DNA of 46,248 nt, from contig NZ_JAQOSO010000032.1 in NCBI RefSeq assembly GCF_030068505.1, forward strand, positions 1 through 46,248. Direction: 5' to 3'. Each line of letters begins with the position of its first letter. The stretch's first letter is position 1. A program made the position numbers and the translations under genes. A model generated the notes under the pieces. It searched no databases, had not been told where the DNA came from, and saw only the letters and a program-made list of their open reading frames with translations. Origin of the DNA: Roseofilum capinflatum BLCC-M114. Its GTDB lineage: Bacteria; Cyanobacteriota; Cyanobacteriia; Cyanobacteriales; Desertifilaceae. Shown piece by piece: positions 6,964 through 31,843 of this stretch.

Positions 6964-7062
6964 AGGGTGATTAACGAGAAAGCAATTGTAAACTGGGATG
7001 AAACCCCTCTAGCGATAAGCGCTAGGGAATAGGGAATACGATGGTGGTCTGTAGGAGTGTAT

Positions 7063-8391
7063 ATGTTAAGTTGGTTCGTTCTGCTCTTGTTTGCGTTCGA
7101 TGGTCTGCTGTGGGCAGAGTGGATGAATACAGTGGATCGGTTGAGTTGGTTGAGTTTAGGCTGGGGATTGCTGGCGATCGCCGCAGTGGAGTGTGTGCGC
7201 GATGTCTATCATGCTTTCTGCCATGCTTGGAAACCTCTCTATCGCTTGCATGTTTGGCATCATCGGGTGTTTCGCCCCGATTTAACCCCGGTCAATGCAG
7301 AGATTTATCAAAAGGCCCATTGGTACAATGATGTGCCCGAAAGTGTGGTGATGATCCTCTCGGCCAGCTTAGGGTCTGCCATAGCTGTATACTTCAACGA
7401 TCAACTTTGGGGAACGGGAGCAGCCATCATTTATTCTGTTACATTTCTCTTGACTGCCATGGGACGAGGATGGGGGGTTCCGGGAATGGAGGAGTGGACA
7501 GACTCAACCCATCGTCCGGGGGCGTTTGATGCCATTCCGAGCCAGGGAATGGTCAATCGTAGTTATCATTGGCGACATCATTTTGATAATCAGAATGCTT
7601 ATTTTTGTGGCACGTTTACCTTGGTGGATCGAATTATGGGAACAGCTTTATCTTTGAAAGGGAAAACGGTAGCGGTAACCGGTGCGTCTGGAACGTTGGG
7701 GCGATCGCTCCTTTATCAGTTACATCTACAGGGTGCAAAACCGATCGCCCTCACGTCTGGCGATCGCCCGATTCAGATTACCGTTGACGATCGAGCAGTG
7801 GAGATCCCCACGGTTTCTTGGCAAGTGGGTAAAGAGTCGGAACTCGAAGAGCAATTCAACTCGATTGATATTCTGATTCTCAATCATGGGATTAACGTCC
7901 ATGGCGATCGCACGGCAGAGGCGATCGAAACATCCTACCAAGTTAACGCCTTTTCCACTTGGCGCTTCATGGAACTCTTCCTCAAAACCATTCACAGCAA
8001 CCGGGATATGGCCTGTAAAGAAGTTTGGGTCAATACCTCAGAAGCCGAAGTTTCCCCCGCCTTTAGCCCCTTATATGAACTCACCAAGCGCACCATCGGC
8101 GATTTAGTCACCCTGCGCCGTCTGGATGCTCCTTGTATTGTCCGCAAACTGATTTTAGGGCCGTTTAAGAGCAATTTGAATCCCATTGGAGTATTATCGG
8201 CTAATTGGGTGGCCGAGCAAATTATTCATCAAGCCAAAGCCGATAGTCGCAACATTATTGTCACCATTAACCCGCTCACCTTTTTAGCCTTTCCGATTAA
8301 GGAATGGTGCAATTCCTTATATTTCCAATTCTTTAGTCAAAAAGCGTCTGATCTCAGTCCAGACCCAGAAACAGAGCAACAAGGGATCTAG
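7063..8391 (+). CDS. Bifunctional sterol desaturase / short-chain dehydrogenase
   Basis: This 442-residue fusion has two parts. Residues 1 to about 195 form a membrane fatty-acid-hydroxylase/sterol-desaturase-like domain with hydrophobic helices and the histidine clusters HAFCH, HVWHHRVF and YHWRHHF, which would bind a di-iron centre. Residues from about 196 form an NAD(P)-binding short-chain dehydrogenase domain with TGASGTLGR and a YELTK version of the YxxxK catalytic motif. The natural substrate is unknown; a membrane lipid or isoprenoid oxidation-reduction is likely. I chose the ATG at 7063 because TAGGAG sits five bases upstream; the GTG at 7057 overlaps that ribosome site. Confidence 0.85.
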   Translation: MLSWFVLLLFAFDGLLWAEWMNTVDRLSWLSLGWGLLAIAAVECVRDVYHAFCHAWKPLYRLHVWHHRVFRPDLTPVNAEIYQKAHWYNDVPESVVMILSASLGSAIAVYFNDQLWGTGAAIIYSVTFLLTAMGRGWGVPGMEEWTDSTHRPGAFDAIPSQGMVNRSYHWRHHFDNQNAYFCGTFTLVDRIMGTALSLKGKTVAVTGASGTLGRSLLYQLHLQGAKPIALTSGDRPIQITVDDRAVEIPTVSWQVGKESELEEQFNSIDILILNHGINVHGDRTAEAIETSYQVNAFSTWRFMELFLKTIHSNRDMACKEVWVNTSEAEVSPAFSPLYELTKRTIGDLVTLRRLDAPCIVRKLILGPFKSNLNPIGVLSANWVAEQIIHQAKADSRNIIVTINPLTFLAFPIKEWCNSLYFQFFSQKASDLSPDPETEQQGI

Positions 8392-8453
8392 AGGAATAGG
8401 GAGAGGTTTACAATCAATTCTTTAGTCCTTTTCTGTTCCCGATTTCCCTGACT

Positions 8454-10439
8454 ATGAGATCCAGATTTTCTTTATGCAATAAGCTTTCCCTGCGTGCGGT
8501 CTTAATTGTGCCGTTTATTTTGCAAATTTCTGCCGCCGTGGGGATTACTGGATATCTGTCTTGGCGCAATGGACAACAGGCCGTTAATGATTTAGCCTAT
8601 CAGTTACGGGATGAGGTGACAAAACGAACTGAGCAACATCTCACGGATTATCTACAACAACCCCCTAGGATTAATCATGTGAATCGGCAGGCAGTGGAAG
8701 CGGGTAAATTGGATGAGGATAACTTTCAGCAGTTGCAAAACCAGTTTTGGCAACAAATGCAGCTTTTCCCGCGATCGCGGGAAATCTATGTCGGTAAACC
8801 CAATGGCAGTTATTTAGCCGTCAGTCGGGAACCCGATGAAAGCTTAATTGTGAAGGAAGTTTTTGGTGAAGGCGATCCCATCGGGCGCTTCTATAGTCTC
8901 TCGGAAACCGGCGATCGCCAGGATCTGATTCGGGAAACGGCTCCCTACGATCCCCGCCAAAGACCTTGGTATAAAGCTGCCCTCGAAACCCGGCAGGCAA
9001 CCTGGAGTGAGATTTATTTATTTCGCTATGGCGATCTGGGAATCACTGCTTCTGAATGGTTTTTGAATACGGATGGCAATGTCGGTGGGGTGATGGCAGT
9101 GGATTTGGTTCTCAGTGGGATTAGTGAGTTTTTAGCGACGATTGAAGTCAGTCCTTCCGGAAAAATCTTTATTGTGGAGCGATCGGGTTTTCTGGTGGCT
9201 AGTTCTAGCGAGGCTCCCCCTTTTCTCTTAGGAGCAGGGGGAAGAAATCCTGAACGATTAATGGCTACAAACATTTCCGATCGCCTCATTCGAGCAACGG
9301 CTGAATTTTTGATGGAGGACAATAAACTAGAGGCGATCGCCACCCCAACACAATTTAATTTCGAGCAAGGGGGCGATCGCTCCTTTGTACAAGTGGCTCC
9401 CTACCCAGATGACTCCGGTTTAGATTGGTTAATTGTGGTCGTGGTTCCAGAATCCGATTTTATGGCCCAAATTCACGCCAATACCCGCCGCACCATTGAA
9501 CTGTGTGTCCTTGCTTTGCTCGTAGCTACCGGATTTGGATGGATGACAGCCCATTGGATCAGTGAACCCATTATGCAATTGATTGCCGGCAGTCAAAAGT
9601 TAGCCAAAGCCGCCTTAAGTCGGTGTGACAATCAAACCCTAGCCCAGAATGTGGAAGTGAGAGGGGTAGAAGAGGTGAAAATTTTAGCCCACTCTTTTAA
9701 CCAAATGGCCCAACAGCTTCAAGAATCCTTTGCTGCCCTAGAAAGAAGCAATCAAGAACTAGAGTTACGGGTCGAAGAGAGAACCGCCGACTTACGCCGG
9801 GAACAGGAAAAATCAGAAGAATTACTGCTCAACATTTTACCGGAGGCGATCGCCGAGCAATTGAAACAGGAGACCCAGGCGATCGCTGAATACTTTGAAT
9901 CCGTCACCATCCTCTTTTCCGATATCGTTGGCTTTACCTCCTTATCCGCTCGCATGGCTCCCATTGATTTAGTCAATTGTTTAAATGAAATGTTTTCCAG
10001 CTTTGATTATTTAGCAGAAAAACATAGCTTAGAAAAAATAAAAACCATTGGCGATGCCTATATGATTGTCGGCGGACTCCCCATCCCCCAACCCGATCAT
10101 GCCGCCGCCATGGCCGCCATGGCCTTAGATATGCAAAAAGTCCTGCAAGATTTTGCCCTGGAAAATGGAGAATCTCTACAAATTCGCATCGGTATCCACA
10201 CCGGGCCCGTAGTGGCCGGGGTGATAGGAGTCCGCAAGTTTAGTTACGATTTATGGGGCGATACAGTCAATACCGCCTCGCGCATGGAATCTTCCGGAAC
10301 GCCAGGGCGAATTCATGTCAGCCATCAGGTTTATGAAGTCTTAAAAGACCGTTTTCAATTTGAAGAGCGGGGCATCATTTCCGTTAAAGGAAAAGGTGAA
10401 ATGAAAACCTATTGGTTAGTTGACCATGTGATGGGGTAA
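8454..10439 (+). CDS. Membrane adenylate cyclase (dCache-HAMP-class III cyclase)
   Basis: This 661-residue receptor cyclase has one N-terminal membrane helix (about residues 12-33) and an extracytoplasmic double-Cache-like sensor with the motif DPRQRPWYK. A second membrane helix follows (about 345-370), then a HAMP linker, a coiled coil and a C-terminal class III cyclase domain. In the catalytic domain SDIVGFTSLS and IGDAYM supply the two metal-binding aspartates. Lys in EKIKTIGD and Asp in YDLWGDTVN are the adenine-selecting residues, so cAMP is the expected product. VNTASRMES carries the transition-state Asn and Arg. The Cache domain suggests a small-molecule ligand. Confidence 0.92.
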   Translation: MRSRFSLCNKLSLRAVLIVPFILQISAAVGITGYLSWRNGQQAVNDLAYQLRDEVTKRTEQHLTDYLQQPPRINHVNRQAVEAGKLDEDNFQQLQNQFWQQMQLFPRSREIYVGKPNGSYLAVSREPDESLIVKEVFGEGDPIGRFYSLSETGDRQDLIRETAPYDPRQRPWYKAALETRQATWSEIYLFRYGDLGITASEWFLNTDGNVGGVMAVDLVLSGISEFLATIEVSPSGKIFIVERSGFLVASSSEAPPFLLGAGGRNPERLMATNISDRLIRATAEFLMEDNKLEAIATPTQFNFEQGGDRSFVQVAPYPDDSGLDWLIVVVVPESDFMAQIHANTRRTIELCVLALLVATGFGWMTAHWISEPIMQLIAGSQKLAKAALSRCDNQTLAQNVEVRGVEEVKILAHSFNQMAQQLQESFAALERSNQELELRVEERTADLRREQEKSEELLLNILPEAIAEQLKQETQAIAEYFESVTILFSDIVGFTSLSARMAPIDLVNCLNEMFSSFDYLAEKHSLEKIKTIGDAYMIVGGLPIPQPDHAAAMAAMALDMQKVLQDFALENGESLQIRIGIHTGPVVAGVIGVRKFSYDLWGDTVNTASRMESSGTPGRIHVSHQVYEVLKDRFQFEERGIISVKGKGEMKTYWLVDHVMG

Positions 10440-24039: not shown

Positions 24040-25548
24040 CTATCCCCCCAATTGACTCGGTAGAGTCAGTTGGCGGGGATGAACAAATTTACCGTCGAAG
24101 CTGAGGGCTTTGTCTTGGAAGGTGCGAGCATTGGCGAGGTCTTGGCGCAGTTGGGCCCTTTCTAGGGTGTCGGGGGTGTCGTCGATCAGGTGGATCAACA
24201 GACGGGTGGCGAGATCCCGGCCGGAGACTTGGATGCGTTTTTTGGTGGGGTTGAAGAGGATGCCGTACCAGAGGGATTCGGGGTGATCGATATGACTGAA
24301 GCCGCCTTGAGTGTCGTAGGTGCAAAGTTGGCTGAAGATGCGGGTTAAGCTGAGGTTGTGTTGGTACACGAGGATACCGATCGCCCGAACGAGGGCGATT
24401 TGACCGACGGGACGGAAGAGCATGTGACCTTTGCCGCCGATACTCTCAAAGCTGAAGCGGCGTAGGTCGGTAGATAAGGCTCCGGTTTCGAGGCTCTGGT
24501 AGCTGGGAAGGGTGGCGAGGTGGTCGAAGAGGGTGGAGAGGGTGTCTATGGCTTCTTGGAGTTCTTCGTCTTCGGGACGCAGGGGGATCAGGCCTTTGTC
24601 GGTTGGTTTCCAGTGGGGATAGGGATGCTGGAGATAGGCTTGGGCCATGTCTTTGAGGGCGGGGAGGGTGGTGAGTACGGTGGATTTGGCGGAGACGGTG
24701 GCGCTGTCGAAGTTGACTCTGGGGTGGCGATCGCCGTCTGCTTTCAGTAGGGGATGGTGAACGGCAAGGCGACGGGCGACAATAGAGAAGCCATCATCTT
24801 CATTCAAGAGCGCCAATTGACCGGCACTCAGGCGCACAGCCATCAGGTTGACATGGACGAAAATAGAGCGGATGCGACCCCTGGCTTGGTCGCGAGTTTC
24901 CCCAGGGAGAACGGCGGGCAGGATCTCTAGGCCGATGGTTTCTTGGGCCAGGTTTTGTAGTTGGCTGGGGGTAATGGGGTAGTGCTGATAGAGGTCTTCG
25001 GCGGTGATGCTGGAGCCGGTGGGCTTTTTGTTTTTCTTGTATTTGGGCAGGGAACCGGTGCGGATCAGTTCCATCAGGCCTTGGATACCCATGAGCCGAT
25101 GTTGGCCATCGAGGGCAAAGAGGGAAAAGGTGCGATCGAGGTTGAGCTGGCCCAGGGTTGAGTGCCCTTCGACTTCGCCCAGGTCGAGGGGGGTGAATTG
25201 GGCGGCAGACTCAGTAGCCCGATCTTGGCTGTCCCATTCAGGAGCATGGGGTTCATCGACCCAGGGGGGACTGATGACGGCGAGGATAGGGGGGAATTTG
25301 TGGTTGGGACGGACGGCGAGATATTGGGCCAGGGGGGCTTGGCGCGACCAGTCGAGGGGGCGCTGTTGCAATTGTTCGATGGTGTCGGCATCCCGGATGG
25401 GGTTGTGGGTTTGGGGGTCGAATTTGTGTTGAAACAGGGGCAGTTGGTGGGCAAACCGGACATGGTTAGCGAGCCATTCGAGGGTGACGGAGGTGAGGTA
25501 GGCTTGGCTTTGTCCCATTTGGGTTTTTTGCACGAGGAGTTGGGTCAT
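24040..25548 (-). CDS. DGQHR-domain protein (DndB-like)
   Basis: This 502-residue protein carries the exact DGQHR motif at residues 147-151 (FSLFALDGQHRLMGIQG). It has further DndB-family style segments such as RSIFVHVNLMAVRLSAGQLALLNEDDGFSIVARRL. DndB proteins of this superfamily regulate the phosphorothioation genes and bind DNA. This one is longer than the neighbouring dndB product (502 against 338 residues) and has the motif intact, whereas the neighbour reads NDGMHRR. The gene is divergent from the dnd operon and shares a gap of about 220 bases with it. GC content is high. Its job, regulator or second accessory factor, is inferred from context. Confidence 0.85.
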   Translation of the reverse strand: MTQLLVQKTQMGQSQAYLTSVTLEWLANHVRFAHQLPLFQHKFDPQTHNPIRDADTIEQLQQRPLDWSRQAPLAQYLAVRPNHKFPPILAVISPPWVDEPHAPEWDSQDRATESAAQFTPLDLGEVEGHSTLGQLNLDRTFSLFALDGQHRLMGIQGLMELIRTGSLPKYKKNKKPTGSSITAEDLYQHYPITPSQLQNLAQETIGLEILPAVLPGETRDQARGRIRSIFVHVNLMAVRLSAGQLALLNEDDGFSIVARRLAVHHPLLKADGDRHPRVNFDSATVSAKSTVLTTLPALKDMAQAYLQHPYPHWKPTDKGLIPLRPEDEELQEAIDTLSTLFDHLATLPSYQSLETGALSTDLRRFSFESIGGKGHMLFRPVGQIALVRAIGILVYQHNLSLTRIFSQLCTYDTQGGFSHIDHPESLWYGILFNPTKKRIQVSGRDLATRLLIHLIDDTPDTLERAQLRQDLANARTFQDKALSFDGKFVHPRQLTLPSQLGG

Positions 25549-25627
25549 GTTTGAGTAATGAGTAATGAGTGGGGGAATGGGGAATTTGGGGTTAAGGTTG
25601 ATTATCTCATTGATATTCGTCAGGTTG

Positions 25628-25696
25628 CCCTCTTCCCCCTGCCCCCTTCTCCCACAGGAGAAGGGGGTTCAAAGTCCCTCTCCTTGGGGAGAGGGC
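25628..25696. repeat. Hairpin repeat, single copy of the dndC-dndD array family
   Basis: This stretch contains CCCCCTTCTCCCACAGGAG-AAGGGGG followed by AGTCCCTCTCC and GGAGAGGGC, both strong hairpins. It is the same repeat family as the array at 29435-29773, here as a single copy in the divergent promoter gap. The two occurrences therefore flank the dndB-HNH-dndC block. Confidence 0.75.
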
Positions 25697-25769
25697 ATTT
25701 TTTCTAAAACTTTGGAATCTTTTTAAAAAACTATGTCATACTGGAGGGGTCGCGGGGGGGGAAAGGGTG

Positions 25770-26786
25770 ATGTTGACTGCGTTTGAGTATGTGTTACCGG
25801 TGGTGCGGGGGATTCAGGCGGGGTATGAGTATTATACGTCGATGTGTCCTTTGCGGTTTTTACCGAAGTTGTTTCCGGTGGGGATGGGGAAGAGTGACCC
25901 GGTGTTGCGGGTTGGCCGATCGCCGTCTCGATCGCGAATTAAGTCTTTGTCTCGTTATATTTTAGACCATTCTCAGAGTTATGTTTTACCGGGGCTGATG
26001 GTGGCAATTGATGGGGATACGCGGTTTGAACCAGTGAGCGAGGAGGGGGAAGATTGGAAGATGGGGCGCTTGTATGTGCCCATGGATGCCACGTTGACGA
26101 TTAATGATGGGATGCATCGTAGGATGGCGCTGGAATGGGCAGTACAGGAGCGTCCAGAGCTGGGATATGAGACGATCGCGGTATGTTTCTTTTTGGGGAT
26201 GGGGTTGGAGCGATCGCAGCAGATGTTTTACGATCTCAATCGCTATGGGATGCGCGTCGATCCGGGTTTGGGGTGGTTGTATAACCATCGAGAGCGGGGC
26301 GAGGGTTGGGTGTTTCATGTGATTAAGGAGGTTGAGTGCTTACGGAAATTAACGGAGATGGAGCGCAGCCGTTTAGGGGCGAAGTCGGGTAAGTTGTTTA
26401 CGTTGTCTGGGGTGTATCCGGCGATCGCCCAGATGTTGGAGCAGGGGGTAACGGTGGCAGAGGCGGTATTATTTTGGCGGGGGGTGTGGGAGGTAATGGG
26501 GGTTTGGCGATCGGTGTTGACGGGGGAGTTGATGGCGTGGGAGGCTAGGGAGAGGTATGTCTGTTGTCAGGCGATCGCCTTTTGGGGGTTGGCTGACGTG
26601 GGGGTTACCCTGTTGTCTCTGTATCCAGAGTCTTGGGAGAATTGCTTACAGGGTTTGGCGCGGGTGGATTGGTCAGTGGCTAACCCAGTTTGGCAAGATT
26701 CGATTATGATTAAGGGACGCTTTCCAGTTTCTGCTGCGACTAGGGTTTGGATGCGCGACTATTTGATGGGGTTTTTGGAAACATGA
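25770..26786 (+). CDS. dndB: DNA sulfur modification protein DndB
   Basis: This 338-residue protein is a compact DndB. The family motif is present in variant form as TINDGMHRRMALEWAV (residues 110-125). The following FFLGMGLERSQQMFYDLNRYGMRVD matches the conserved helix-strand region after DGQHR. DndB is not needed to insert sulfur; in studied hosts it represses dnd transcription and tunes modification density. It is the first gene of the rightward operon and overlaps the HNH gene by four bases (ATGA). Start choice: an ATG three bases after a GTG at 25767; both follow a purine-rich run. GC content is high, like the divergent DGQHR gene. Confidence 0.85.
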   Translation: MLTAFEYVLPVVRGIQAGYEYYTSMCPLRFLPKLFPVGMGKSDPVLRVGRSPSRSRIKSLSRYILDHSQSYVLPGLMVAIDGDTRFEPVSEEGEDWKMGRLYVPMDATLTINDGMHRRMALEWAVQERPELGYETIAVCFFLGMGLERSQQMFYDLNRYGMRVDPGLGWLYNHRERGEGWVFHVIKEVECLRKLTEMERSRLGAKSGKLFTLSGVYPAIAQMLEQGVTVAEAVLFWRGVWEVMGVWRSVLTGELMAWEARERYVCCQAIAFWGLADVGVTLLSLYPESWENCLQGLARVDWSVANPVWQDSIMIKGRFPVSAATRVWMRDYLMGFLET

Positions 26787-27766
26787 GTCAGGTTAGATCT
26801 GAGGAAGACCAACGGAATTTAGCTTATTATTGCAAGTGCTTTTCAACGCTTAAAGTCCACAAAACAAAGGAACTCGGTAAAGCTTTTCATAAACCAATTC
26901 TTCTTTTATCAGTTATAGATTTGATTGGTCAGGGTTATATTCAAAACAATCGCATTTTTGTTTCAGAAGAACTTGAAAAAATATTTGATAAATACTGGAA
27001 AATTATTGTTAAAGAATCTAGACGATTACCTAGACTTTATTACCCGTTTTTTCATCTTAAAAATGAAGGATTTTGGCATCTTGAGTTTAAGAAGCCATTT
27101 AAAGATACTCAAATTAAAAGTAAAACCAAGCTCAATGAGTTTGTAGAGTATGCATACCTTGATAATTCTTTATTTAAGTTACTACAAAATGACCAATACC
27201 GAAATCAGCTTATTGATACTTTGATTGCGTCATGGTTTAGTGTTAGTCAAACCAAGCTAGAAGAAATTTTAGACATTAATGATCGATTTGTAGAAGATCC
27301 TGAAGACTCACAGGATCTAGCAAATCTCAGTTTAAGAGATTCGGTAGAAACGCCAACTTTTAGAATGAGTAAATCTGTTGTAAGAAAAGCCTTTTTTCGT
27401 AAAAGTATTGTCCATATCTATGATTACCGATGTGCATTTTGCCGACTTAAAGTACAAAGAAGTTTGAAGCAGTTCATTGTAGATGGGGCACATATTAAAC
27501 GACTATCAGAGTTTTATGATAATAGCATAACTAATGGTTTATCCTTGTGTAAGAACCATCATTGGGCTTTTGAAATGGGTTGGTTTTTCATTAATGAAGA
27601 TTACAGAATCATAGTAGCTGATGATTTAGAAGAAGACTCACCTTATGCACGTCCTATGAAAGATTTTCACGGAGAACGTATACTGTTACCGAGTTTACAG
27701 AAAGATTTTCCTAGCCTTGAGGCCTTATACTGGCATCGTAAAAAAGTATTTGAAGCATACAGTTAA
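26783..27766 (+). CDS. HNH endonuclease with McrA-type sulfur-binding-like domain
   Basis: This 327-residue protein has an N-terminal half with FHKPILLLSVIDLI (35-48) and YYPFFHLKNEGFWHL (86-100). These resemble the HKPLLLL and Y-P-F-W-x-L-x-N-D-G-x-W patterns of sulfur-binding domains in phosphorothioate-dependent McrA-type nucleases. The C-terminal HNH domain has C217-x2-C220, DGAHIKR (His237), NGLSLCKNHH (Asn251, Cys256, His259-260) and an FEMGWFFI strand. I infer a DNA endonuclease that reads phosphorothioate status. The start is set by the ATGA overlap with dndB. The gene is markedly AT-rich (one 60-base line is about 28% GC; a dndB line is 55%) and has no GCGATCGC, so it was probably acquired separately. 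Confidence 0.8.
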   Translation: MSQVRSEEDQRNLAYYCKCFSTLKVHKTKELGKAFHKPILLLSVIDLIGQGYIQNNRIFVSEELEKIFDKYWKIIVKESRRLPRLYYPFFHLKNEGFWHLEFKKPFKDTQIKSKTKLNEFVEYAYLDNSLFKLLQNDQYRNQLIDTLIASWFSVSQTKLEEILDINDRFVEDPEDSQDLANLSLRDSVETPTFRMSKSVVRKAFFRKSIVHIYDYRCAFCRLKVQRSLKQFIVDGAHIKRLSEFYDNSITNGLSLCKNHHWAFEMGWFFINEDYRIIVADDLEEDSPYARPMKDFHGERILLPSLQKDFPSLEALYWHRKKVFEAYS

Positions 27767-27778
27767 GAGGGATTCAAA

Positions 27779-29434
27779 GTGCTAGAACAACCCATACTTG
27801 AAAAAGAAACAACTGAATCGCGCACTATTCAAGAATTTATTGATGATCTGGAAACACTGACTCTAGAGATTCAAGAATTATACTTAGATAATGAAATTCC
27901 GTTTATTGTGGGTTTGTCTGGTGGCAAAGACAGTACAGCCACATTGCAGCTTGTTTGGAATGCTATCGCTAGGCTCCCCGAAGAAAAGAGGACTAAACTG
28001 ATTTATGTCATTACAACTGACACTCTGGTAGAAAATCCGATTGTTTCTCAATGGGTTAGAAAATCTATCGAATTGATGAAAGCATCGGCCAAAAAGCAAC
28101 GGATGCCGATTGAACCTCATTTACTCATTCCAGAAATATCAGAAACCTATTGGGTCGGATTAGTGGGTCGAGGTTATCCTGCACCGCGTCATAGTTTTAG
28201 GTGGTGTACTCCAAGATTAAAAGTTCATCCATCGAATCATTTTATCCGGGATATTGTCCGGAAAAATGGAGAAGCAATCGTAATTTTAGGAACCCGTAAA
28301 ACGGAAAGCACTCGCCGTGCTGCCATCATGAACAAACGCGAGCAAGGAAAAGTAAAAGATCGGTTATGTCCTCATGTACACTTACCCAGTTCTTTACTCT
28401 ATACCCCAATTGAAGATTGGCGAACGGATGAAGTCTGGATGTACCTCATGCAATGGGAAAATCCTTGGGGAAACAACAACAAAGATCTATTTTCCATGTA
28501 TCGGGGAGCAACTGCCGATAACGAATGTCCCCTAGTCGTCGATACCTCAACCCCCAGTTGCGGAAGTTCTCGCTTTGGGTGCTGGGTTTGTACCTTAGTC
28601 GATAAGGATAAATCCATGGAAGCCATGATCCAAAATGACGAAGAAAAGGAATGGTTACAACCGCTTTTAGATATTCGCAGTGAACTCGATCCAAAAAATG
28701 ATCGCGATAAACGAGATTTTCGGCGCATCTATGGAAGAGTCGAACTCTTTGAGCGCAAAATACAGGGAGCTGATAAAAAAACTGAACTCCAACCTATTCC
28801 CGGCCCTTATAAAAAAGAATGGCGGGAATATCTGCTCAGACGACTGCTCGAAGCACAGGTACAAGTTCGGCAAACTGCACCGCCAGAAATGGGAGAAATA
28901 ACCTTGATCACCCCCGAAGAACTGAGCGAAATTCGCCGCATTTGGCTAGAAGAAAAACATGAATTCGAGGATAGCTTACCGCGAATTTATCAAGAAGTCA
29001 CCGGAGAAGCATTTATCGATCGCCGTCCAGAAGGCGATCGCACCCTCCTCGGTTTAGACGAGTGGAGCGTTCTCGAAGAAGTCACCGATAAAGACTCCAT
29101 GGAATTCGAGCTACTCGCCAGACTCCTCAACACCGAACGCCAATATCAAAACAAAGGCAGTCGTCACGGCATTTATGAAGCTCTGAGCAAATGCTTTGAT
29201 ATCAGTTCCCGCGAACAAGACAAAGCCATTACAGATGCTCATTTTCAACGAGCCATAAAAACCGCCACTTTGGAAGGAAACGCGGAAAAAGTGGAAGACT
29301 TCATCAAACACCCCGAAAAAGCCGATCCCAACCATCCCGACAACCAACCCAAACCCGAACCCCCACCCCCAACCGAACAACTCAGTTTAGGTTGGGGAGA
29401 CATCAAATTTGGCTCGTCTGCTGAGAATGGTTAG
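27779..29434 (+). CDS. dndC: DNA phosphorothioation sulfurtransferase DndC
   Basis: This 551-residue protein is DndC, a PAPS-reductase-family enzyme that activates the DNA backbone with ATP for sulfur insertion. The PP-loop SGGKDS lies at residues 47-52. Cysteines that could hold the Fe-S cluster are in FRWCTPRLKVH and in STPSCGSSRFGCWVCTLVDKDKSM, a typical DndC pattern. GTRKTESTRRAAIM is also characteristic. The start is a GTG with AGAGG eight bases upstream, and it follows the HNH gene by 12 bases. The C-terminus ends in a low-complexity Pro-rich tail (PKPEPPPPTEQ) just before a repeat array. Confidence 0.93.
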   Translation: MLEQPILEKETTESRTIQEFIDDLETLTLEIQELYLDNEIPFIVGLSGGKDSTATLQLVWNAIARLPEEKRTKLIYVITTDTLVENPIVSQWVRKSIELMKASAKKQRMPIEPHLLIPEISETYWVGLVGRGYPAPRHSFRWCTPRLKVHPSNHFIRDIVRKNGEAIVILGTRKTESTRRAAIMNKREQGKVKDRLCPHVHLPSSLLYTPIEDWRTDEVWMYLMQWENPWGNNNKDLFSMYRGATADNECPLVVDTSTPSCGSSRFGCWVCTLVDKDKSMEAMIQNDEEKEWLQPLLDIRSELDPKNDRDKRDFRRIYGRVELFERKIQGADKKTELQPIPGPYKKEWREYLLRRLLEAQVQVRQTAPPEMGEITLITPEELSEIRRIWLEEKHEFEDSLPRIYQEVTGEAFIDRRPEGDRTLLGLDEWSVLEEVTDKDSMEFELLARLLNTERQYQNKGSRHGIYEALSKCFDISSREQDKAITDAHFQRAIKTATLEGNAEKVEDFIKHPEKADPNHPDNQPKPEPPPPTEQLSLGWGDIKFGSSAENG

Positions 29435-29773
29435 CCCTCATCCCCCTGCCCCCTTCTCCCACGGGAGAAGGGGGTAAAGTCCCTCTCCCCGTGGGAGAGG
29501 GATATAGGGAGAGGGCACACAACGCTCGATACCCCACAAAAAAGTCCCTCTCCTGTGGGAGAGGGATATAGGGAGAGGGCACAACGCCTCATCCCCCACA
29601 AAAAAGTCCCTCTCCCCGTGGGAGAGGGATATAGGGAGAGGGCACACAACGCTCGATACCCCACAAAAAAGTCCCTCTCCCCGTGGGAGAGGGATATAGG
29701 GAGAGGGCATAACGCTCGATACCCCACAAAAAAAGTCCCTCTCCTGTGGGAGAAGGATATAGGGAGAGGGCAC
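29435..29773. repeat. Tandem hairpin repeat array between dndC and dndD
   Basis: The array begins at the base after the dndC stop. After a lead-in hairpin (CCCCCTTCTCCCACGGGAG then AAGGGGG) come five units of 62-65 bases. They start with GTCCCTCTCC at 29479, 29544, 29606, 29671 and 29735. Each holds CCCTCTCC-(C)GTGG-GAGAGGG, a stable hairpin, then ATATAGGGAGAGGGCA and the linker CAACGCTCGATACCCCACAAA. One unit of the same family lies upstream of dndB. Minus-strand open frames in this stretch are repeat translation, not genes. Confidence 0.92.
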
Positions 29774-29797
29774 AACCATATTTAATTGTTAACTGAC

Positions 29798-31843
29798 ATG
29801 ATCTTCCTCGAACTCGTATTAGAAAACTTCGGCCCCTACAGGGGTAGACAAATCCTCAACCTCTGCCCCAATGATGGTAAACCCATCCTCCTCTTAGGGG
29901 GAATGAATGGGGGAGGAAAAACCACCCTCATGGATGCCATTCGCTTAGTCCTTTATGGCCATCGTGCCGAATGTTCCACGCGGGGAAATCTCAGTTATGC
30001 CAACTTCCTGAAACAATGCGTTAACCGCCATACTCCCAACGGAGAAAAAACCCGGTTAGAACTGTTAGTACAGATCGTTTCTAGCGATAGCAGTAAGTTA
30101 GGACAGCAGGGTAGGGGCGAACGGCCGTTCGCCCCTACGTTCAATGTTTCTTCTGACTCTCAATTCCATACCCAACTGCGAATTATCCGCCATTGGACAA
30201 CAGCAGACAGCAAAGATACCCTAGGCATTCTTAACGGTGAATTTCCCGAAAATGCCCTCAGAGATACTTGGGATGATTATATTGAAAACCTGTTACCTTT
30301 GGGCATTTCTAACCTGTTTTTATTCGATGGGGAACAGGTGAAAGAATTGGCCGATCTCGATGCTCCTCCTCCCTTAGTCGTGCAAGCGATTCAATCCTTA
30401 TTAGGCTTAGAATTAGCCGATCGCCTGGACACCGACCTAGACATCCTCTCCCGTCGTCAGCAAAAGAAGATCGCCGATAAGCAGGAATTGGGCAATTTAG
30501 AGGACATTGACCACAAACTCAAGGGTTATGACCGGGAGAAGGAGCGCATTACCCAAGAGAGCAAGAATATAGAAAATATGCTCAAACGGGCCCAAAAAGC
30601 CGCTAAACAGGCCGAAAATGAGTTTGTTTCCGAAGGAGGAAAAATTGCAGCCGAACGCCATCAGCTTGACTTGGAGAAAAAGAACCAAGAGGCCAAAATT
30701 CAACAGACTCGCGACGCACTGGTGAATTTAGCCGCCACCTCCCTGCCCCTGAGCCTGATTGAAGATCTGATCAACCCGGCGATCGCCCAAGGGAAAGCGG
30801 AACAGGAGTCCCTCAAAGCGCAAATTTCCCGCGATCGCATTCAGGAGCGCGATCGGCGTTTACTCAACCATCTGCAAACCCTTAATCTTTCCGACTCCCA
30901 AACCACCGAAATTGAAGCCTTTTTACAGCAAGACTACTACCATTTAGAACAGGAAATCTTACCCCCAGAAAAAACCTGGCTACAAGCCACCCCGGAAGAA
31001 CTAGAAAACCTAGAAAAACTGATCGCCTACGACGTTCCCACCCAACGACAAAAAGCCCAAGCCGAATCCGAAGCCCTGGAAAAATTAGAGCAGCAACTGA
31101 TGGATATCGAGCGCAAACTCACCGTCGCCGCTTCTCCCGAAATCTACCAAAAATTAATGGAAGCCAAAGAACAAGCCAACGACAAAAAGACCAAACTCGA
31201 AATCGATTTAGAATACAAACATCGGCAACTGCGAGACATCGAGCGCAGCATCGACGAGGCGAAAAAAGAACTCAAAGACTACAGCGATAAATTTCTGGCT
31301 AGGGAAAGCGAGACCCATATGGTCAACTCCATCGCCAGAGTTAAAATAATACTCACTCAATACCGAGAAAAACTCACCCTCAAGAAACTCAACAAGCTCG
31401 AAAACCACGTCACCGAATGCTTCCGCTACCTGCTGCACAAATCAGACCTCGTTCACCGCGTCGTTATCAGTACCGAAGACTACAGCCTCGCTCTGTATGA
31501 TTGCGAAGGTCAACCCCTGCCCAAACACCGCCTATCTGCCGGAGAAAAACAACTTTTGGCGATCGCCTTTCTCTGGGGTTTAGCCAGAGTCTCCGGCCGC
31601 CAACTCCCTGTTGCCATTGATACCCCCCTTGGTCGCCTCGACTCCTCCCACCGGCAAAACCTAATCGAGCGCTACTTCCCCAGCGCCTCCCACCAAGTCA
31701 TGCTCCTCTCCACCGATACAGAAATCGCCCAAACCGAAGTTAAAAATTTACGAGAGCAACAAGCCATTACCCGCGAATACCTGCTCAAATACGACCCCAC
31801 CACCGGCCAAACCACCATTCAAGAGGGTTATTTTTGGGAATAG
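29798..31843 (+). CDS. dndD: DNA phosphorothioation ATPase DndD
   Basis: This 681-residue protein is the SMC/Rad50-like ATPase of the Dnd complex. Walker A GGMNGGGKTTL (residues 34-44) follows LENFGPYRG. A long coiled coil fills about 215-550. The C-terminal head has RLSAGEKQLLAIAFLW (signature) and VAIDTPLGRLDSSHRQ (Walker B and D-loop). The ATPase is thought to nick or remodel DNA for sulfur insertion with DndC. I chose the ATG at 29798; a TTG four codons upstream is in frame. Residues of about 103-115 (GQQGRGERPFAPT) derive from a palindromic repeat inserted in frame. No dndE follows. Confidence 0.92.
   Translation: MIFLELVLENFGPYRGRQILNLCPNDGKPILLLGGMNGGGKTTLMDAIRLVLYGHRAECSTRGNLSYANFLKQCVNRHTPNGEKTRLELLVQIVSSDSSKLGQQGRGERPFAPTFNVSSDSQFHTQLRIIRHWTTADSKDTLGILNGEFPENALRDTWDDYIENLLPLGISNLFLFDGEQVKELADLDAPPPLVVQAIQSLLGLELADRLDTDLDILSRRQQKKIADKQELGNLEDIDHKLKGYDREKERITQESKNIENMLKRAQKAAKQAENEFVSEGGKIAAERHQLDLEKKNQEAKIQQTRDALVNLAATSLPLSLIEDLINPAIAQGKAEQESLKAQISRDRIQERDRRLLNHLQTLNLSDSQTTEIEAFLQQDYYHLEQEILPPEKTWLQATPEELENLEKLIAYDVPTQRQKAQAESEALEKLEQQLMDIERKLTVAASPEIYQKLMEAKEQANDKKTKLEIDLEYKHRQLRDIERSIDEAKKELKDYSDKFLARESETHMVNSIARVKIILTQYREKLTLKKLNKLENHVTECFRYLLHKSDLVHRVVISTEDYSLALYDCEGQPLPKHRLSAGEKQLLAIAFLWGLARVSGRQLPVAIDTPLGRLDSSHRQNLIERYFPSASHQVMLLSTDTEIAQTEVKNLREQQAITREYLLKYDPTTGQTTIQEGYFWE
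30111..30138. repeat. 28-bp perfect palindrome inside dndD
   Basis: GTAGGGGCGAACGG is followed immediately by its exact complement, giving a 28-bp palindrome within the dndD reading frame. The identical element occurs at 38911-38938 between genes. It translates as GRGERPFAP, a string that recurs wherever this repeat falls in cyanobacterial frames. Confidence 0.9.

Follow-up and report, generated by a model that had tools for sequence, protein, structure and literature searches.

The nucleases closest to the one considered here are endonucleases that depend on phosphorothioate (PT) DNA and join a sulfur-binding domain (SBD) to an HNH domain, including SprMcrA, EcoWI and Bsp48385I, along with ScoMcrA, which is built as SBD-SRA-HNH. 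Already in print are both nucleases in Dnd neighbourhoods, with wHTH(SBD)+SAD+HNH genes reported in the Dnd loci of 698 taxa (PMC10853773), and rare dnd-linked SBD-HNH enzymes, fewer than 3.6% of the predicted SBD-HNH enzymes lying near dnd genes and the dnd-linked cases being left unresolved (PMC7461809). PT-sensing effectors of another build, SspE and DndI, carry DUF262 and HNH domains. Cyanobacterial Dnd systems have been described as free of PT restriction genes (PMC8569181). We analysed a 46,248-nt stretch of Roseofilum capinflatum BLCC-M114 (contig NZ_JAQOSO010000032.1; hereafter the window, whose positions supply the coordinates below) in which, unlike the free SBD-HNH endonucleases, an SBD-HNH gene stands inside the host's own dnd locus, beside dndC. 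The question addressed is why hosts that write PT can keep nucleases that read it. Our results suggest that the nuclease found beside the writer in dozens of cyanobacteria is matched to it, and that the combination is no self-destructive accident.

The genes on the forward strand run dndB, SBD-HNH, dndC, dndD. This order, the ATGA by which the nuclease start codon overlaps the dndB stop, and the 12 bases separating the nuclease gene from dndC had all been given in an original prediction made from the sequence, and the coordinates bear them out; such operon embedding supports as likely its further proposal that the nuclease is produced along with the modification enzymes. The features on which the argument first depends are these:

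26783 to 27766, forward strand: SBD-HNH nuclease gene (the slot gene; protein P0002, 327 amino acids)
26810 to 27247, forward strand: SBD, residues ~10-155, assigned through 8h0l by sequence and fold
27365 to 27763, forward strand: HNH nuclease domain, residues ~195-327, assigned through HNH_2, TagI and conservation in 112 sequences
27779 to 29434, forward strand: dndC, GTG start; TIGR03183 at 674.5 bits (cut-off 290.4)

The N-terminal half of P0002, predicted to resemble the SBD of McrA-type nucleases, does so both in sequence and in fold. A phmmer search aligns residues 18-167 with SBDHga1 (8h0l) at E 8e-19 and residues 152-281 with TagI; the AlphaFold2 model (mean pLDDT 80, from an alignment of 43 sequences) is matched by Foldseek to 8h0l with a TM score of 0.88 by target length, a root-mean-square deviation of 2.2 and an E value of 3e-8, followed by TagI, VcaM4I, ScoMcrA and SprMcrA, rather than to an unrelated fold. 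Pfam HNH_2 matches above its cut-off. NF045808 ('PT-DNA_restrict') covers residues 21-323 at 119.8 bits, below its cut-off of 180, in which P0002 differs from the described SBD-HNH endonucleases; all four relatives scored against it likewise fall under the cut-off (108.9-127.5 bits). Family scans detected neither an SRA nor an NTPase domain in P0002, and DUF262 (GmrSD_N, PF03235) gave no match in it at E values up to 1.

With the SBD-HNH endonucleases P0002 shares the pocket frame and the HNH residues. Among 112 family members longer than 290 amino acids (near-duplicates included, HNH genes below 290 excluded), D234 and H237 are kept in 111, and N251 and H260 in all 112; from the HNH fold, we take these four to be catalytic and C217, C220, C256 and H259, also kept in 112 of 112, to be zinc ligands. 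This conservation rules out a dead remnant. The pocket residues H36, K37, Y87, P88 and H91 were paired by eye, via motifs, with H116, R117, Y164, P165 and A168 of ScoMcrA, whose Y164, the motif equivalent of position 87, is reported to touch bases and to vary with PT context (PMC6224610). P88 is kept in 110 of the 112 sequences, H91 is also present in SBDHga1, K (91) or Q (21) stands at position 37, and the variable positions are 36 (Y, H or N) and 87 (Y in 70, L in 29, Q in 8, or other). By sequence and model, then, P0002 has the SBD fold, the pocket residues and an intact HNH site, and PT-dependent cleavage is predicted. That it is instead a passenger of low activity, binding PT and hardly cutting it, with a regulatory role or none, finds a precedent in Bsp48385I, the one dnd-linked enzyme studied, which has low activity and hardly discriminates PT (PMC7461809); we hold this to be very unlikely given how nearly invariant the catalytic and zinc residues are.

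Random insertion of the nuclease gene, which the original prediction had itself raised, is ruled out by linkage to dnd genes in relatives. Among 386 genomes of the phylum, P0002 finds matches in 63 at E 0.001 and in 39 at E 1e-40 or better. DndC scores over its cut-off in 94 of the 386, namely in 36 of the 39 HNH-family genomes against 58 of the 347 others (naive Fisher p 1e-21), and a DndC homologue lies on 35 of the 39 HNH-bearing pieces (the window and L034-L071; exceptions L063, L065, L069 and L071). A second sample, the best 80 of 260 relatives in a named collection, cyanobacterial by title, is linked throughout: dndC accompanies 74, and another dnd gene the remaining 6. A third sample, which comprises 79 stretches and overlaps the second, shows linkage to a dnd gene for each of the 47 relatives whose identity is at least 50%; those below 50% divide into 15 linked and 17 unlinked, the latter including plasmid-borne copies. 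The family thus divides into a dnd-embedded branch and a freer one.

A few further observations concern the family's range. On the Nostoc plasmid pNsp_d (L242), an SBD-HNH relative at 7995-8945 is followed by small genes including DUF262 and GIY-YIG genes, and similar runs occur in L063 and L065. Microcystis loci (L205, L214 and L225, named by title; also L047 and L053) hold an HNH-dndC pair without dndD in the examined stretch. A phage origin was rejected, five phage records matching at E 1e-5 with the best only 26% identical, and no link was made between the family and Mae9806I (PMC7461809); the two candidates checked from the genus Microcystis (L319, L320) are by eye without an SBD.

The place that the nuclease gene occupies is an exchangeable slot. 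A second DndB-like gene, which neighbours the slot in relatives and lies upstream of dndB in the window, had not been described in the original prediction:

24040 to 25548, reverse strand: DGQHR2, a divergent DndB-like (DGQHR domain) protein of 502 amino acids; TIGR03187 at 156.6 bits and PF14072 at 58.3 bits, both over cut-off

A census of 94 dndC loci on 99 pieces found HNH in the slot in 35, DGQHR3 (a full-length PF14072 DndB-like protein, mostly on the opposite strand) in 30, neither in 29 and both in none (naive p 1.8e-8). Of 9 independent pairs, none had HNH and DGQHR3 changing in the same direction and a mean of 6.4 had them changing in opposite directions (p between 0.004 and 0.125, median 0.031). 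When mapped on a DndC tree with 90 rows (4 of the 94 dndC sequences, below 480 amino acids, were dropped; this and the other trees are quick LG+G4), HNH presence needs at least 13 changes, 9 of them forced by starred branches. The stretch from dnd_assoc_4 to dndC, available in 53 pieces, reads HNH-DGQHR2 in 16, DGQHR3-DGQHR2 in 10 and DGQHR2 alone in 5, the rest having other arrangements. Other occupants of the slot are a DGQHR-like gene in L117 (11446-14127), L129 (4056-6041) and L148 (9021-11201), with a GIY-YIG gene in two of the three, and a DUF262 (GmrSD_N) gene in L154 (11498-13891). The nucleases of PMC10853773, by comparison, are described with SRA/SAD domains and mostly downstream of the modification genes, unlike this SRA-free gene between dndB or dnd_assoc_4 and dndC; slot exchange and the coupling to DndC set out below are what we add, and no earlier report of either was found in searches of an open-licence library of papers. 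Two side observations belong here. In L142, dndB and dndC are separated by a gene for a LAGLIDADG homing endonuclease (6970-7959). A DGQHR3 paralogue of about 40% lies away from dnd genes both in the window's genome (43%; contig C55, L257, 6437-7612) and in the same-genus genome G213, so that genome-wide absence of DGQHR3 was rejected.

Within the genus, the exchange has left a trace:

26797 to 28356, forward strand: tract without sister-species homology (blastn against G213), comprising the HNH gene with the 5' portion of dndC

Identity to G213 is 95.7% up to 26796, where it stops, and restarts at 93.6% at 28357, inside dndC; the interior yields a single short 74% match, and G213 holds DGQHR3 there. 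Guanine-plus-cytosine content is 33.0% in the HNH gene, 40.6% in the 5' and 46.8% in the 3' part of dndC, 53.2% in dndB and 46.9% in the window. DndC itself is 53.6-54.8% identical to its sister over residues 1-193 and 89-98% beyond. The genus is represented by six genomes, each with a dndC; the five others carry DGQHR3 beside it, and against the window's DndC they stand at 57.5-58.7% over residues 14-193 and 78-92% over the rest. On the simplest reading of these sequences, the HNH gene entered the window's lineage together with the writer's recognition part, some 193 dndC codons that include the specificity loop. DGQHR3 would then have been replaced by HNH and the N-terminal part of DndC (DndC-N) in one tract; if reader and writer must agree, they would be exchanged together.

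Across the phylum, too, the slot and DndC-N go together. The HNH or DGQHR3 state associates with DndC residues up to ~210 (n=63) and with dnd_assoc_4 (n=43), and shows no detectable association with DGQHR2, DndD, DndE or the second ATPase (n=46, 50, 39 and 29). In 35 complete loci, the fewest changes of state required on trees of successive DndC segments are 4 (residues 20-110), 3 (110-210), 6 (210-310), 9 (310-400) and 10 (400-490), against 5 on the tree of dnd_assoc_4, 11 on DGQHR2, 10 on DndD and shuffled means of 11.6-12.3. Among HNH loci, distances of the SBD were compared with those of its neighbours, near-duplicates above 95% or 90% DndC identity being removed (as in the code and validation tests below) and HNH genes under 290 amino acids left out. 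In 19 loci where DGQHR2 lies between HNH and dndC, with DndD as control, the SBD tracks DndC-N at r 0.51 (0/500 permutations) and dnd_assoc_4 at 0.64; the corresponding values are 0.00 for SBD and DGQHR2 and 0.02 for the nuclease domain and DndC-N, and SBD and DndE give 0.07 in 13 loci. Pooling 38 loci gives 0.40 for SBD and DndC-N (jackknife 0.37-0.43), 0.11 for DGQHR2, 0.06 for the C-terminal part of DndC (DndC-C) and 0.07 for the nuclease domain. The coupling recurs, more weakly, in 11-16 new loci. These comparisons suggest that the SBD and DndC-N evolved together.

Could recombination breakpoints and common descent produce the coupling as a by-product, without functional matching? In the window, HNH and the 5' part of dndC did arrive as one adjacent tract; dnd_assoc_4 adjoins the SBD-coding end, so that its signal may be linkage; and the trees are quick and the permutations leave some phylogeny in. 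Yet where DGQHR2 intervenes it is uncoupled, and the coupling of DndC-N is there not so simply explained by linkage; we regard this explanation as extremely improbable.

The coupled part of DndC contains the element already implicated in motif choice:

28172 to 28204, forward strand: DndC specificity loop GYPAPRHSFRW, residues 132-142, with the triplet R137 H138 S139; loop as defined in PMC12193691

This loop is predicted from models to read the motif, and mutation shows that it is needed (PMC12193691); the coupling likewise points to DndC-N as the seat of sequence choice. Published triplets are TRS for GAAC/GTTC, TQN or NQT for GATC and RxK/R for GGCC (PMC12193691). The window's RHS fits none of the three patterns, and a PT motif could not be assigned from it; the five other genus members have RNG, RPG (three) and RQG. 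Particular pocket types occur with particular triplets in the 59 HNH loci left after deduplication (NKL with RNR in 5 of 5, for example). A one-residue rule picked after viewing these data, pairing L, I or M at SBD residue 87 with the DndC triplet R[NQKR]R, holds in 54 of the 59. The DGQHR2 tree yields 12 independent pairs, 9.7 of them same and 0 opposite (p 0.002); the DndD tree yields 9, with 8.0 same and 0.1 opposite (p 0.008).

Beyond what is directly seen (domains, conserved residues, linkage, slot exchange, the imported tract and a statistical coupling of SBD and DndC-N), we propose, at close to even chances, that the HNH protein is a PT reader-effector of its own Dnd system, matched to its writer and sparing PT-bearing self DNA in the manner of SspE and DndI. 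DndC, DndD and DndE, the last encoded elsewhere in the genome, would modify a portion of the sites in the host; the SBD would bind these self marks in the sequence context set by DndC-N; binding would hold or switch the HNH nuclease and thereby protect self DNA that carries PT; and PT-poor DNA, such as phage DNA, might be nicked or cut. Published relatives are in keeping with this: SprMcrA that has lost part of its SBD is an unspecific nickase, and Bsp48385I shows little PT discrimination (PMC7461809). Our preference for this reading rests on the example of SspE and DndI, PT reader-nucleases able to leave PT-bearing self DNA alone, on the occupation of the same slot by a DUF262 gene (L154), and on the joint rise of reader and writer distances. 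The likeness to SspE and DndI lies in the proposed pairing of reader-nuclease and writer; the difference is that the reader here is an SBD, with no DUF262 or NTPase domain found. A more specific version, to which we give somewhat less than an even chance, is a modular pair: the SBD and DndC-N fit each other and move between loci as one module, leaving the ATPase, DndE and nuclease domain in place, and the SBD reads self. The premise of the original prediction that a host making and cutting PT DNA would kill itself need not hold. The co-variation of SBD and DndC fits a reader matched to its own writer at least as well as it fits the altered specificity offered as a way out; the other two ways out, cutting of a foreign pattern and an addiction or abortive system, are rivals taken up below.

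Several results weigh against such matching. The residue-87 rule, written down first, holds in only 11 of 17 new loci (Fisher p 0.33), which remained of 79 stretches after 35 duplicates, 23 without dndC and the remainder without a long enough HNH had been dropped; the reader-writer code is accordingly rejected, and we claim coupling and no code. Residue-87 classes also show some association with DndD (0.082) and DndE (0.066). In the new loci the coupling falls to r 0.28 (16 loci, control DndC-C, 7/1000), with DGQHR2 there at 0.22 (83/1000), and to 0.31 (11 loci, control DndD, 20/1000), with DGQHR2 at -0.02. One set of 25 loci had the nuclease domain, too, tracking DndC-N (0.225, 0/500), and the SBD also tracked DndC-C (0.27 in 19 loci, 0.37 in 15). 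HNH and DGQHR3 occur together in 4 of the 80 named loci (L172, L190, L202, L220) and in L297, at least five loci that rule out absolute mutual exclusion, and HNH genes are shortened or split by stops beside an open dndC in L058, L064, L070 and L163. The free SBD-HNH enzymes that others have studied cut PT DNA, and without regulation a reader matched to its writer should therefore attack its own host. Moreover, coupling alone is compatible with reading one's own mark and with having to avoid it.

In the main rival to the matched reader-effector, the SBD reads another PT context, the nuclease cuts incoming DNA of a foreign dialect, and a wrong reader-writer pair is lethal. If dialects are few, slot exchange and coupling are explained equally well; free SBD-HNH enzymes do cut foreign PT plasmids (PMC7461809, PMC6224610), and the idea has been put forward for dnd-linked cases (PMC7461809). 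A joint rise of SBD and DndC-N distances is, however, more natural for matching than for mere avoidance, and an orphan type IV enzyme needs no tight operon embedding; we consider foreign-dialect restriction rather unlikely.

The remaining genes of the locus are these:

25770 to 26786, forward strand: dndB; PF14072 at 305.8 bits; GTG at 25767 an alternative start
29798 to 31843, forward strand: dndD, ATG start (TTG at 29786 an alternative); TIGR03185 at 620.3 bits (cut-off 245.85)

DndB passes the Pfam cut-off and falls under the NCBIfam equivalog cut-off (287.7 against 328 bits). The slot has DndB-like genes as neighbours, HNH genes are in some cases broken, and suicide effectors in Dnd loci have been proposed (PMC10853773), all of which would suit an addiction or suicide arrangement in which the nuclease cuts self PT DNA and is held by DndB, DGQHR2 or dnd_assoc_4 until freed by infection or loss of the operon. 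We judge this unlikely: an inhibitor did not emerge, co-variation with the SBD is absent for DGQHR2 (r 0.00), and the slot may hold DGQHR3, which has no recognised nuclease domain, or no recognised gene (5 of 53). As a separate observation, the interval between dndC and dndD (29434-29774) contains GC-rich tandem repeats with a unit of ~65 bases; a comparable stretch lies 5' of dndB (25627-25688), so that these may be a dispersed genomic repeat.

Elsewhere in the genome, dndE on contig C30 completes the Dnd modification set begun by DndC and DndD in the window, and dnd_assoc_4 is on contig C112. The original prediction saw no dndFGH, pbe or ssp partners in the window, and none was identified there by family scans covering only five proteins of 24040-31843; genome-wide the claim fails, contig C13 carrying a dnd_restrict_1 helicase beside a PbeC-like ABC ATPase. 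TIGR03238, the one family used to check for DndFGH, gave no match in the genome, but its controls gave none either, and absence is not implied. PbeABCD is represented by a PbeA-like helicase and a PbeC-like ATPase in many relatives' loci and on another contig of this genome; these lie outside the window, and the SBD-HNH protein is not a Pbe protein.

With a reader slot that is conserved, exchangeable and coupled to DndC, the question of why PT-writing hosts keep PT-reading nucleases becomes directly testable, by pairing and mispairing readers and writers taken from two species within a genus. If the modular pair is real, cyanobacterial Dnd systems supposed to lack restriction would own an effector, and the SBD, so far known as a reader of foreign marks, would here read self. 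DndC-N plus its reader would then be a natural record of PT motif specificity.

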